NCBI RefSeq assembly: GCF_009601505.1
Contig: NZ_WITC01000120.1
Location: forward strand, 1 to 64,000
DNA: 64,000 bases
Source: Sinorhizobium terangae
Lineage (GTDB): Bacteria > Pseudomonadota > Alphaproteobacteria > Rhizobiales > Rhizobiaceae
Direction: 5' to 3'
Part shown: in pieces, positions 61,346-64,000 of the stretch
Layout of the letters: every line of letters starts with the position of its first letter
How positions within the stretch are numbered: the first letter of the stretch is position 1
Notes under the pieces: model-generated
Told to the model about the DNA's origin: nothing
What the model saw: the letters and a program-made list of their open reading frames with translations, nothing else
Database searches by the model: none
Made by a program: the position numbers and the translations under genes

Positions 61346-61434
61346 CGGATGAGGAAAAGTGTGTGCGGTTTTCCGCCCGCATCCCGCGCCAACTTATTAG
61401 AATCGATCACGTTTATGATTTAGGTCGATCGGCC
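61346..61434. repeat. Candidate rhizobial intergenic repeat (third family)
   Basis: The segment GCGGTTTTCCGCCCGCATCC and the following GAATCGATCACGTTTATGAT are sequences I associate with many rhizobial intergenic regions, often beside RIME. Only one copy is present here, so its repeated nature cannot be shown from the window. Confidence 0.5.
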
Positions 61435-61503
61435 CCTCTATTGATGGGCGAATGCCTGTTCCCTATGTAAATACTCCAGCGACTATAGATATGAGGCGGC
61501 AGC

Positions 61504-61917
61504 ATGTATTCGATCGGTGACCTCTCCCGCCGCACCGGCGTCAAGATCCCGACCATCCGCTATTACGAGCAGATGGGATTGATCGAGGCGCCGGAACGCT
61601 CGGAAGGCAATCAACGGCGTTATGAAAAGCGCGAACTCGAGCGACTGGCCTTCATCCGCCACGCGCGCGACCTGGGACTCTCGATCGAGGCGATCCGCGA
61701 TCTTCTGGCGCTCAGCGAACATCCGGAGCGCCCTTGCGGCGAGGCGGACCGCATTGCCACCGAACACCTCGCGTCAGTACGTGAAAGGATCGCCAGGCTG
61801 CGAAAGCTGGAAAGCGAACTGGAGCGCATCGTCGCCTGCCATGGCGATCATACGATCGGCGACTGCTACGTCATCCGGGCGCTCGCCGACCACTCGATGT
61901 GCGAGAGCGAGTACTGA
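61504..61917 (+). CDS. MerR family transcriptional regulator, probably metal-sensing
   Basis: 137 aa. The N-terminal HTH starts MYSIGDLSRRTGVKIPTIRY. The dimerisation helix carries RPCGEADRIATEHL, and the C-terminus has ACHGDHTIGDCYVIRALADH plus a last Cys (SMCESEY). A Cys at the dimer helix start with a C-terminal Cys/His loop is the pattern of metal-responsive MerR proteins (ZntR/CadR/CueR-like). No efflux pump lies adjacent in the window. It ends 57 bp before the attenuator leader. Confidence 0.88.
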   Translation: MYSIGDLSRRTGVKIPTIRYYEQMGLIEAPERSEGNQRRYEKRELERLAFIRHARDLGLSIEAIRDLLALSEHPERPCGEADRIATEHLASVRERIARLRKLESELERIVACHGDHTIGDCYVIRALADHSMCESEY

Positions 61918-61940
61918 GGCCCGCCGGCCGAGAATTCCCG

Positions 61941-61969
61941 TTGACAAAATCGCGGAAATCGCGAATCTA
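61941..61969 (+). promoter_or_regulatory. Promoter of the GNAT-DJ-1/PfpI leader transcript
   Basis: -35 TTGACA (61941-61946), 17-bp spacer, weak -10 AATCTA (61964-61969). Start of transcription predicted at about 61975, the A of the leader ATG, so the leader peptide would be leaderless. The spacer contains the dyad TCGCG-N5-CGCGA (61950-61964), a possible operator. Confidence 0.55.
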
Positions 61970-61974
61970 CGCGC

Positions 61975-62025
61975 ATGATCAAGAACGCACCCATTTCCCG
62001 CGTGTATTTTTGGCTGTTCCGATAG
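61975..62025 (+). CDS. Leader peptide with Tyr-Phe-Trp codons, 16 aa
   Basis: ORF encoding MIKNAPISRVYFWLFR, stop TAG at 62023. Consecutive TAT-TTT-TGG codons (62005-62013) with a further TTC make it sensitive to charged tRNA-Tyr, -Phe and -Trp. It has no Shine-Dalgarno but begins at the predicted transcription start, like the leaderless trpL of S. meliloti. The stop codon is two bases before the anti-terminator arm. Confidence 0.65.
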   Translation: MIKNAPISRVYFWLFR

Positions 62026-62026
62026 G

Positions 62027-62080
62027 AGCGGCCTGCTGATCATATTCAACAAGGCCGCCATCAGGCGGCTTTTGTTTTTC
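62027..62080 (+). terminator. Attenuator: alternative anti-terminator and terminator hairpins
   Basis: Arm A GCGGCCT (62028-62034) can pair perfectly with arm B AGGCCGC (62052-62058). Arm B also pairs with arm C: GCCGCC (62054-62059)-ATCA-GGCGGC (62064-62069), extended by AAG/TTT to 9 bp and followed by TTTTGTTTTT, a Rho-independent terminator. A-B and B-C cannot form together. A ribosome at the leader stop would cover A and let the terminator form; one stalled at Tyr-Phe-Trp would leave A free. Confidence 0.72.
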
Positions 62081-62117
62081 ACGGCACCTGATGGCGGCAG
62101 AACCATAGGAGCCGAGA

Positions 62118-62621
62118 ATGTTGCAGACCGCCACCCCTTCCCTTCATCCCCTGCCATCGGCACGCCCACCGATGGTGACGATCCGCTGTGCCAAACCGCG
62201 CGATCTTCCCGAACTGCACGAGATGATCGTCGAACTTTCCGCGCATCACGGCGACGCCGCACCGCTGACGCCGGAACGGCTCGAACGCGACCTCTTCAGC
62301 CGCTCCCCCTGGATCACCGCGCTTGTCGCCGAAGCCGGCAACCAGCTGATCGGCTACGCCATCCTTGTTCCGACTTATCGGGCAGCCGAAGGCGTGCGCG
62401 GCATGGAACTGCATCACCTTTTCGTTCGTCCCGGCCATCGTGGCACCGGCATTGGCCGCCACCTCGTTGCCAAGGCACGCGAACAGGCGCGTATGGTCGG
62501 CTGCGACTATCTTTCCGTCAGCGCCGCCACCGGCAATTTCCAGGCGCATCGCTTCTACGAATCCGAACGCTTCGTACCTCGACCCGTCACCGGCATGCGC
62601 TATATGCAGAAACTTGGCTGA
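62118..62621 (+). CDS. GNAT family N-acetyltransferase
   Basis: 167 aa, ATG preceded by AGGAG at 6 bases. The acetyl-CoA site is in LFVRPGHRGTGIGRHLVAKA (Q/RxxGxG/A motif). The C-terminal strand-helix GNFQAHRFYESERFVPRP is also typical. A later ATG at 62172 starts at the conserved fold. Substrate unknown. It is the first gene behind the aromatic-type leader attenuator and is followed 12 bp later by a DJ-1/PfpI gene. Confidence 0.9.
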   Translation: MLQTATPSLHPLPSARPPMVTIRCAKPRDLPELHEMIVELSAHHGDAAPLTPERLERDLFSRSPWITALVAEAGNQLIGYAILVPTYRAAEGVRGMELHHLFVRPGHRGTGIGRHLVAKAREQARMVGCDYLSVSAATGNFQAHRFYESERFVPRPVTGMRYMQKLG

Positions 62622-62633
62622 ACGGGAGGGCTC

Positions 62634-63212
62634 ATGCGCCTCGCAATCGTCCTGACGGAAGGTTTCGCCGACTGGGAATGCGCGCTGCTGATGGCCACGG
62701 CGCGCACCGAGCTCGGGCTCGACGTGCTGATCGCCGCGCCCGGCGGCACCGTGGTGACATCGATGGGCGGCCTTCACATCACGCCGCACCTGCCGACGAA
62801 GACGCTGGCCCCGACGGAGTTCGACGCGCTTGTGCTCTGCGGCGGGTCGGCCTGGCAAACCTCCGCTGCACCCAATCTCACTGCGATGATCCATGCCTTT
62901 CACGGGAAAGGCCGCGTCGTCGCAGGGATCTGTGGGGCGACGCTTGCGCTGGCCGCTAGCGGCATTCTCAACGAAACGGACCACACGGGCAACTCGGCCG
63001 AAAGTCTCTCAGCAGTCGCCGGTTATCACGGTCACCAACATTATCGCGACCAACCGCAGGCCCTTCGCAGCGACCGCCTGGTGACCGCTGCGGGTACGGC
63101 CCCGGTCAGCTTTACGGCCGAGATCTTCCACGCGCTCGGCCTCGGTTCCGAAGCGCTTGACGACTATCTTTCGCTCTACGCCAGGGAGCATGTCGTTCGC
63201 GCTGCACGATAA
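62634..63212 (+). CDS. DJ-1/PfpI family protein
   Basis: 192 aa. Nucleophile Cys in RVVAGICGATLALA, with the acid residue region early (LTEGFADWECALL). The helix-strand pattern matches type-1 glutamine amidotransferase-like DJ-1/PfpI proteins. Catalytic role unknown: protease, deglycase, isonitrile hydratase or chaperone are all possible. It has a GGGAGGG Shine-Dalgarno and probably forms one operon with the GNAT gene. Confidence 0.9.
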   Translation: MRLAIVLTEGFADWECALLMATARTELGLDVLIAAPGGTVVTSMGGLHITPHLPTKTLAPTEFDALVLCGGSAWQTSAAPNLTAMIHAFHGKGRVVAGICGATLALAASGILNETDHTGNSAESLSAVAGYHGHQHYRDQPQALRSDRLVTAAGTAPVSFTAEIFHALGLGSEALDDYLSLYAREHVVRAAR

Positions 63213-63225
63213 AGCAGTGAACCCT

Positions 63226-64000
63226 TCAAAGCGGCGGGAGCGCCTTCAGATAGGCGGCGATCGCCTCTCGGTCGGAGGGCGAAAGTCTTGCCAGGTTCTT
63301 CTGTACCTCGATCATCGAACCGCCGACGGAATCGAAATCCGGCGTGAAACCGGTCTCCAAATAGGAGGCGATGTCGGATGCGCTCCAACTGCCGACGCTT
63401 CTCGAGCCCGGCGTGATGTCCGGGATGCGGCCTTGGCCCTCGGGGTTTGGCGCACCGGCCAACCACCTGCCTGCCTCGAATCCGCCGAGGGCGTTGCGCG
63501 GCGTATGACACTCGCCGCAATGGCCGGGACCTTCAACCAGATACTGCCCGCGTGCGAGCTTCGCGTCCGCCGTATTCATCTCGACGCGCGGCTCGTCGGT
63601 GAAGAACAAGAGCTTCCAGGCGCCTAGCGCCGGGCGGATGTTGTAGGGAAAAGGCAAGTCGTGCGGCGGCACCACATTGGCGCTCTTCGGCAGCGTTTGC
63701 AGATATCCCCAGAGATCATTGATATCCTTGGCAGTCATGCGCGCGTAGGAACCGTACGGGAACGACGGATAAAGGTGCTCGCCATTTTCCCCGACACCGC
63801 GCGTCATGGCGTTGCCGAACTCGGCAAGCGTCCAGTCGCCGATGCCGGCGCTTTCATCGGGCGAGATGTTTGGAACATGGAAGGTACCGAAGGGGCTTTT
63901 CAGGGCCCGGCCACCTGAAAGCACGAGCCGCGCGTCATCCTGTGCCCCCGGCTGAGCGTGGCAGCTGACGCAGCCGCCTGCCCAAAAAACCTGTTCGCCA
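63226..64000 (-). CDS. Diheme cytochrome c, partial (runs off the right edge)
   Basis: At least 258 codons; the start lies beyond the window. Two CXXCH haem sites: CVSCH (about 63960) and CGECH (about 63510). Between and after them are the segments TFHVPNISPDESAGIGDWT and IPDITPGSRSVGSWSASDI, each a typical class I cytochrome c fold with Met-ligand regions. This resembles the cytochrome subunit of periplasmic alcohol or gluconate dehydrogenase-type complexes. It is exported by family. It converges with the DJ-1/PfpI gene. Confidence 0.88.
   Translation of the reverse strand, partial: GEQVFWAGGCVSCHAQPGAQDDARLVLSGGRALKSPFGTFHVPNISPDESAGIGDWTLAEFGNAMTRGVGENGEHLYPSFPYGSYARMTAKDINDLWGYLQTLPKSANVVPPHDLPFPYNIRPALGAWKLLFFTDEPRVEMNTADAKLARGQYLVEGPGHCGECHTPRNALGGFEAGRWLAGAPNPEGQGRIPDITPGSRSVGSWSASDIASYLETGFTPDFDSVGGSMIEVQKNLARLSPSDREAIAAYLKALPPL

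Follow-up and report, generated by a model that had tools for sequence, protein, structure and literature searches.

The trp, pheA and pheST attenuators of Escherichia coli are built from alternative 1:2, 2:3 and 3:4 pairings, with the regulatory codons lying in or next to segment 1 and with an intrinsic terminator, and kinetic antitermination is accepted for trp attenuators. In the translational attenuators of ermC and cat, the stalled ribosome unmasks a downstream ribosome-binding site, the signal being a drug. The auxiliary, indolmycin-resistant trpRS1 of Streptomyces coelicolor is reportedly also under ribosome-mediated attenuation. In the rnTrpL/peTrpL leader, consecutive codons specify the amino acid that is sensed, a feature shared with the leader analyzed here. 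The parts of two sources covered here (PMC10117765, PMC7298713) describe rnTrpL of Sinorhizobium meliloti as a leaderless short ORF, the AUG of which is the start of the transcript, with the attenuator RNA being released as an sRNA. A survey of S. meliloti RNA, in the part covered, reports 379 mRNA leader transcripts.

On computational evidence, the leader found upstream of a GNAT-family N-acetyltransferase gene of Sinorhizobium terangae is very probably a leaderless ribosome-mediated attenuator that senses aromatic aminoacyl-tRNA and controls this gene. It appears to work like the trp and pheA attenuators and, as far as the literature search reaches, represents an undescribed RNA family; in genera as well studied as Sinorhizobium, Rhizobium and Agrobacterium, an attenuator of the amino-acid type would then govern a non-biosynthetic gene. 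In agreement with the initial annotation, which named no earlier report of such a leader, the literature search returned no description of it, although the mRNA-leader tables of the S. meliloti RNA survey may contain it as an unannotated entry. Likewise, no description was present in the covered parts of PMC10117765, PMC3616915, PMC3738593, PMC1273637, PMC2965389 (in which ermC is mentioned), PMC2873474, PMC2573895 and PMC2881028. None of 4227 Rfam models matched the window (the whole stretch of 64,000 nt that was analyzed) above its gathering cutoff. A permissive Rfam search returned five matches to positions 61900-62180, all far below cutoff, and Phe_leader (RF01859) scored 16.5 against the leader, with a cutoff of 55.

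Layout of the leader locus

The leader occupies an intergenic gap of 200 nt between a MerR-family gene (61504-61917, MerR domain by Pfam match) and the GNAT gene (62118-62621; PF00583, 4.2e-17), which is followed by a gene for a DJ-1/PfpI-family protein (62634-63212; PF01965, 1.4e-24); the two latter genes and all leader features given below lie on the + strand. The -35 box TTGACA (61941-61946) is located 34 nt 5' of the ATG of a leader ORF of 16 codons plus stop (MIKNAPISRVYFWLFR, 61975-62025, with the stop codon TAG at 62023-62025), which is predicted to be leaderless, the RNA beginning with the A of its start codon. The presumed -10 element, AATCTA (61964-61969), is weak and placed by spacing only, and a generic sigma-70 consensus scan raised no flag at the leader. 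In the promoter proposed by the initial annotation, the -35 box and its spacing are nevertheless conserved. The codons TAT TTT TGG for Tyr-Phe-Trp (62005-62013) are the presumed stall site.

Downstream of these codons, the pairing set corresponds to the classical trp-type 1:2, 2:3 (A:B) and 3:4 (B:C) alternatives, mutually exclusive in silico. Segment 1, covering codons 13-15 (GGCUGUUCC, 62012-62020), is supported by folding and covariation and pairs in the predicted fold with positions 62025-62033 (GGAGCGGCC), which hold most of arm A. Segment 2, or arm A (62025-62034), includes the antiterminator 5' arm GCGGCCU (62028-62034), which begins two bases past the leader stop and is complementary to AGGCCGC at 62052-62058. 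Segment 3, or arm B (62052-62059), pairs with either A or C, and segment 4, comprising arm C and a U-rich run (62064-62079), forms an intrinsic terminator with arm B, with terminator arms GCCGCC and GGCGGC at 62054-62059 and 62064-62069, respectively, and the run TTTTGTTTTT, seen by sequence inspection, at 62070-62079. The terminator scan placed a stem of 9 pairs with a loop of 4 at 62051-62072. Both alternative arms and the terminator with its T-run, as first read from this stretch, are therefore present, and their pairings are kept in homologues.

Three further elements, the 1:2 hairpin, a helix at the 5' AUG (P1) and an arm D, go beyond what had been proposed previously. In the predicted P1, the 5' strand AUGAUCA (61975-61981), which includes the start codon, pairs with UGAUCAU (62037-62043), located between arms 2 and 3 in the A-B loop, and thereby sequesters the start codon. 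Arm D (CCTGATGGCGGC, 62087-62098), defined by covariation and conserved over its first nine bases, is complementary to the end of arm B, the terminator loop and the 5' part of arm C. An anti-Shine-Dalgarno strand GGCACCT (62083-62089) overlaps arm D and can pair with the Shine-Dalgarno (SD) region AGGAGCC of the GNAT gene (62107-62113). The leader RNA (61976-62082) folds with z = -4.34, and none of 200 shuffles was equally stable. Overall, this layout suggests that termination, access to the start codon and access to the ribosome-binding site are controlled in a linked manner within ~145 nt.

In the same neighborhood, a stretch of 30-37 nt within 61400-61436, upstream of the MerR gene, recurs at 13 other places of the own genome (E <= 1e-3; matches covering query positions 1-30 to 1-37), and may represent a dispersed repeat or a family of binding sites.

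Conservation of the leader, its codons and its pairings

Each of the 32 genomes in the genus sample, the own one and 31 others, encodes an orthologous GNAT (E < 1e-90), and the leader is near-invariant, from the -35 box to past the T-run, in 30/30 of the loci returned with sequence. When 297 family genomes were searched by blastn with the leader, 61 of them, spanning 22 of 109 genera, gave a match at E <= 1e-3. The corresponding 63 places comprised 58 GNAT leaders, two leaders with Tyr-Tyr (YY) codons (L098 and L099) and three chance matches (L097, L100 and L101). In a collection of named taxa, 387 GNAT relatives were confirmed, and in the best 80 of these 387 an RNA-model match directly 5' of the gene was accompanied by an aromatic leader ORF in 80/80. 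The leader-bearing named taxa belong to Sinorhizobium/Ensifer (including S. medicae, S. fredii and S. meliloti, with an orthologue in strain 4H41 at locus L193), Pararhizobium, Rhizobium, Neorhizobium, Agrobacterium and Ciceribacter, with the GNATs that are 93-98% identical to that of the window all deriving from Ensifer and Sinorhizobium species. The sequence TTGAC stands at -34 to -37 from the ATG in 79/80 named loci vs 9/4000 random positions; in the remaining locus the TTGAC nearest to the ATG sits at -11. In all these respects, the TTGACA box and the 16-codon ORF with its Tyr-Phe-Trp codons, both noted initially in this single sequence, proved to be kept in homologues.

The gene neighborhood is less uniform. 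Among the 80 named loci, DJ-1/PfpI was detected downstream in 44, MerR upstream in 56 and a convergent cytochrome c gene in 74; MerR was undetected in 24, and the leader is kept in all. Since these neighbors vary, the GNAT is the constant target of the leader and DJ-1/PfpI an optional partner. The initial designation of the locus as a GNAT-DJ-1/PfpI operon was accordingly correct for its first gene and too wide for its second. These data also bear on the trivial explanation that the upstream MerR gene simply ends in a common intrinsic terminator, next to which a small ORF lies by chance. Terminator-like sites are indeed common (two in 61400-63300 vs 1.3 expected by shuffling), whereas many genera share the ORF, its codons and the -35 spacing and show covariation in several pairings, and the leader persists in the 24/80 loci where MerR was undetected upstream. 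By virtue of this conservation, chance is already refuted and its residual probability is negligible.

The leader ORF consists of 16 codons in 47 and of 17 codons in 11 of the 58 leaders. Outside of the aromatic stretch its residues vary widely between genera, and either YFW or WYF is found in 57/58 leaders of the family set and in 80/80 named loci, each of these two arrangements retaining all three aromatic residues; W is absent from L093 (RYFTLFR) and from L147 (AYFT), a related leader described below. Tyr-Phe is encoded by TATTTT in 80/80 named loci. Within the leader YF pairs, Phe is encoded by TTT in 58/58 and Tyr by TAT in 55/58, whereas in the GNAT coding sequences of the 80 named matches TTT accounts for 27/417 Phe codons and TAT for 129/415 Tyr codons (counted over the first 501 nt in frame of each, i.e., slightly beyond the stop in shorter genes). 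This pattern suggests a genuine ORF in which the codons serve as the sensor.

Covariation was analyzed in a sequence-only alignment of 55/58 GNAT leaders (54 distinct rows; L041, L042 and L046 left out), and a second alignment comprised 40/58. In the former, the combined A:B and C:D pairings gave a covariation score of 0.158 vs 0.103 in shuffled alignments (0/500 as high; slid versions <= 0.112) and 39 double-change cells vs 16.6 (0/500; slid versions <= 9), both values being uncorrected for kinship. Most of this signal is supplied by C:D, A:B itself hardly varying. The two terminator-loop positions facing arm D illustrate the exchange of pairs: position 1 with D is AU in 20, GC in 19, UG in 2, other in 10 and gapped in 3 rows, and position 2 is UA in 32, CG in 10, UG in 3, other in 6 and gapped in 3 rows. 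As the loop is unpaired in the terminator, its covariation with D points to selection on the loop:D pairing. For the OFF structure (P1, 1:2, B:C and SD), the score was 0.116 vs 0.103 (2/500; slid versions <= 0.060), and the double-change cells numbered 24 vs 13.5 shuffled (1/500), yet slid versions reached 26; the number of pairs with double changes in this structure, 8 vs 6.3 shuffled (83/500), was not significant. In the alignment check proposed by the initial annotation, the aromatic codons are conserved in the form of YFW or WYF.

When duplex energies of own and swapped strands were compared, 1:2, loop:D and D:SD each gave 0/5000 and P1 7/5000 in the GNAT set, and P1 gave 0/5000 and 1:2 38/5000 in 22 other members of the family. 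The P1 and 1:2 comparisons excluded two sequences of odd ORF length (L124 and L144). In the controls, 62/2000 permutations were as low for the 5' end against the tail, and 1936/2000 for the 5' end against the SD. Both the shuffle and the swap tests ignore kinship among the sequences. Overall, homologues deprived of the ORF or of the alternative pairing, which the initial annotation named as evidence to the contrary, did not appear, both elements being kept.

The near-invariance of the leader within the genus, over ~90 nt and with the loops included, could be taken as a sign that the terminated ~105-nt RNA or the 16-residue peptide acts mainly in trans, in the manner of rnTrpL/peTrpL, with attenuation of the GNAT being secondary; moreover, the covered parts of PMC10117765 and PMC7298713 present the S. 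meliloti trp attenuator RNA as a leaderless dual-function RNA/peptide. Nevertheless, 58 of the 60 true leaders from the leader-sequence search directly precede the GNAT, the non-aromatic residues of the peptide differ widely between genera, and the pairings covary with arm D and with the SD of the adjacent gene, which would be needless for a purely trans function. A mainly trans-acting role is for these reasons considered improbable, and attenuation of the adjacent GNAT remains the preferred reading.

Stall model and output of the switch

The effect of a stalled ribosome was modeled with RNAs ending at arm B and with the ribosome-covered bases blocked, A:B being scored when at least 4 bp formed. 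For A-site positions from Y-1 to Y+3, A:B formed in 58/58 leaders; with the A site at Y-6, Y-5, Y-4, Y-3 and Y-2 it formed in 34, 44, 43, 43 and 45 of 58, respectively, and it was present in 48/58 at Y+4, in none at Y+5 and in 0/58 at the stop codon. The model is thus sharp on the 3' side only. The five-codon stretch in which all leaders are positive spans both YFW and WYF, so that Trp can stand on either side of Tyr-Phe. These values agree with the attenuation geometry proposed from the window alone, in which a stall at the aromatic codons opens the antiterminator. Without a ribosome, RNAs ending at arm B formed A:B in 20/58, 1:2 in 42 and P1 in 31 cases.

Once arm C is included, equilibrium folding favors the terminator: placing the A site at Y, F and the next codon made A:B the stronger pairing in only 2, 1 and 3 of 58 cases, respectively, and without a ribosome the terminator formed in 58/58. 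In the fold of the window's own leader, P1 and 1:2 coexist with the terminator. Antitermination must consequently be kinetic, given that the terminator is favored at equilibrium as soon as arm C is present.

In the mechanism that we infer from these observations, transcription would start at the AUG of the 16-codon leader ORF. A ribosome that reaches the stop codon would cover arm A, allowing the B:C terminator to form and an RNA of ~105 nt to be released. Under a shortage of Tyr-, Phe- or Trp-tRNA, the ribosome would halt on YFW and mask segment 1, leaving arm A free to pair with B before C is made, whereupon RNA polymerase would read on and the GNAT would be expressed. In an untranslated leader, P1 would tie the 5' AUG to the loop and the 1:2 hairpin would stand, again leading to the terminator. 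Finally, read-through would make the terminator loop and arm C available to arm D, whose pairing with them may compete with the SD-sequestering hairpin.

This last, translational layer, linking arm D with the ribosome-binding site of the GNAT, is partly supported by folding. When A:B was forced, loop/C:D helices of at least 4 bp formed in 29/58 leaders vs 1/58 in the OFF state, and the SD became freer in 27/58 and less free in 2. The minimum-energy ON structure of the window's own leader displays the C:D helix, and in the forced ON ensemble its own SD was not freed (0.79 to 0.84). The covariation of arm D with the terminator loop and of the SD region with its sequestering strand could even be read as an indication that the switch acts mainly on translation and only secondarily on transcription termination, the more so as four of 58 homologues (L069, L073, L083 and L086, by eye) lack a U-run and retain D and the SD hairpin. 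Against this stand the U-rich run of the other 54/58 leaders (by eye) and the unfreed SD of the window's own forced ON state, and a primarily translational output is regarded as unlikely. Termination with kinetic antitermination is therefore preferred as the main output for the family, with a possible exception: in the four U-run-less leaders the D and SD strand is kept although the hairpin is not followed by a U-run, so that termination cannot be the mechanism there, and a termination switch may possibly have turned translation-only. These four leaders belong to one genus (g105; genomes G274, G214, G135 and G327).

Related leaders, the sensed signal and comparison with known attenuators

Relatives of the leader before other genes were collected with two RNA models, R1, built from the GNAT leaders and run on 397 genomes of the order, and the broader R2, run on 385 genomes at the level of the class and on 257 at that of the family, with stricter filters that lose weak matches in these multi-genome searches. 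R1 gave hits at E <= 0.01 in 99/397 genomes, many covering only the terminator end of the model. The 30 R1 loci examined comprised the window, eight Rhizobiaceae GNAT leaders (L114 being new), five tyrS leaders, four tyrA leaders and 12 matches judged to be chance terminators (L123, L125, L127 and L129-L137). With R2, 13 of 14 hits in the 385 genomes of the class show the architecture, the own leader included, L150 being without it. In the 257 family genomes, R2 recovered 66 places, 16 of them new, and 13 of the 15 new ones examined (one in genome G069 was left out) show the architecture, which is absent from L165 and L167. As the architecture was seen in 13/385 class genomes, under filters prone to missing weak matches, the leader family looks patchy. 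In the own genome, R1 found one strong match, the window leader, and five weak ones (E 0.1-4.5), and two sequence patterns did not locate trpL there.

The codon runs of these leaders follow the gene that stands behind them. Excluding near copies or same places (L118, L128 and L142) and a broken tyrS (L098), YY is found in 9/9 leaders of tyrA (prephenate dehydrogenase) and in 5/6 leaders of tyrS, the remaining one carrying YF, and Trp is absent from all 15. The single trpS leader (MVNRPHLPAFIWWRSF, L148, 449-1453 on the - strand, from one genome of the class) carries WW (1/1). A distant group of GNATs, two members of which are 30% and 32% identical to the GNAT of the window, has WYF in 5/5 leaders. 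Small orphan S4-domain proteins resembling the C-terminus of TyrRS, with weak Pfam support (one S4 match above cutoff), have leaders with WYF in 2/3 and YF in one; they are located in other families of the class (L143, 1161-1424 -; L147, 1181-1456 -; L149, 1671-1937 +). One scaffold with codon runs YY, WW, YFW and WYF matched to the next gene would amount to a natural demonstration of attenuator retargeting, and this codon-gene matching is the strongest argument for aminoacyl-tRNA as the signal.

Three genomes (G125, G207 and G268) each carry a YFW GNAT leader together with a second, YY leader, which in G207 and G268 stands before a full-length tyrS. In G125, the YY leader (L099) is almost identical to the tyrS ones, with no evident tyrS ORF directly behind it. 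A second tyrS behind a YY leader was observed at L155 and L156, and in G010 (C166 and C130) and G020 (C14, locus L098) related tyrS copies appear to be fragmented. The genus also has a housekeeping tyrS (54-57% identical), which was considered as a second target and rejected, the leader being upstream in 0/30 loci; across the housekeeping tyrS loci, the leader model gave one weak partial match, located elsewhere in L258 (E 0.27).

By its Pfam match, the GNAT is not a gene of amino-acid biosynthesis, as the initial annotation had stated, nor one of charging, whereas tyrA, tyrS and trpS, found behind the related leaders, are such genes. Its nearest profiles are diamine acetyltransferase 2 (1.3e-16) and thialysine acetyltransferase (1.4e-13), matches that are too distant for a substrate to be named. 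Together with the many drug acetyltransferases among GNATs and with weak matches, below cutoff, to enzymes acting on aminoglycosides and streptothricin, the non-biosynthetic nature of this target might suggest that the GNAT is a resistance gene and that the leader responds to a drug acting on the ribosome, or to a stall caused by one particular nascent peptide as in ermC. Such sensing is very unlikely, as the peptide residues around YF vary freely, the related leaders carry YY or WW matching tyrS, tyrA and trpS, and RNA geometry, rather than one peptide motif, determines where the ribosome has to stall.

The codon-matched aminoacyl-tRNA thus remains the favored signal, and the leader would provide an initial hint about the function of this uncharacterised GNAT, which probably acetylates something met when aromatic aminoacylation fails. 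An amino-acid switch on a non-biosynthetic enzyme, together with a spare TyrRS in the family, invites a reading in terms of blocked charging over one of plain starvation. More speculatively, and with rather low confidence, leaderless aromatic attenuators might constitute a protective regulon in Alphaproteobacteria that senses failed charging of Tyr, Phe or Trp (e.g., by synthetase inhibitors or competitors' toxic aromatic analogues) and induces compound-acetylating GNATs and spare TyrRS genes, with the P1 start-codon lock and arm D adding translational control.

Compared with the trp, pheA and pheST leaders of E. coli, the GNAT leader shares the 1:2, 2:3 and 3:4 alternatives, the codons in or next to segment 1 and the intrinsic terminator, without sequence relation at the level of Rfam. 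It differs from them in its predicted leaderless start, its mixed Tyr-Phe-Trp run, its 5' AUG helix, its GNAT target and its arm D, which links the terminator loop to the ribosome-binding site. The likeness to trpRS1 of S. coelicolor lies in a non-biosynthetic, possibly protective gene behind an amino-acid-sensing attenuator, although trpRS1 belongs to another phylum, responds to Trp only and has no known relation to the GNAT leader. In ermC and cat the signal is a drug, whereas a codon-matched aminoacyl-tRNA is proposed here. Finally, with respect to rnTrpL, we know of no arm D or P1 in this RNA. The leaderless start, described for S. meliloti rnTrpL in the covered part of PMC10117765 and predicted here from the -35 spacing (79/80), would be common to both; as far as the same part extends, rnTrpL/peTrpL encodes a different peptide of 14 residues, senses Trp only and controls trpE, whereas the GNAT leader encodes 16 residues with a Tyr-Phe-Trp run.
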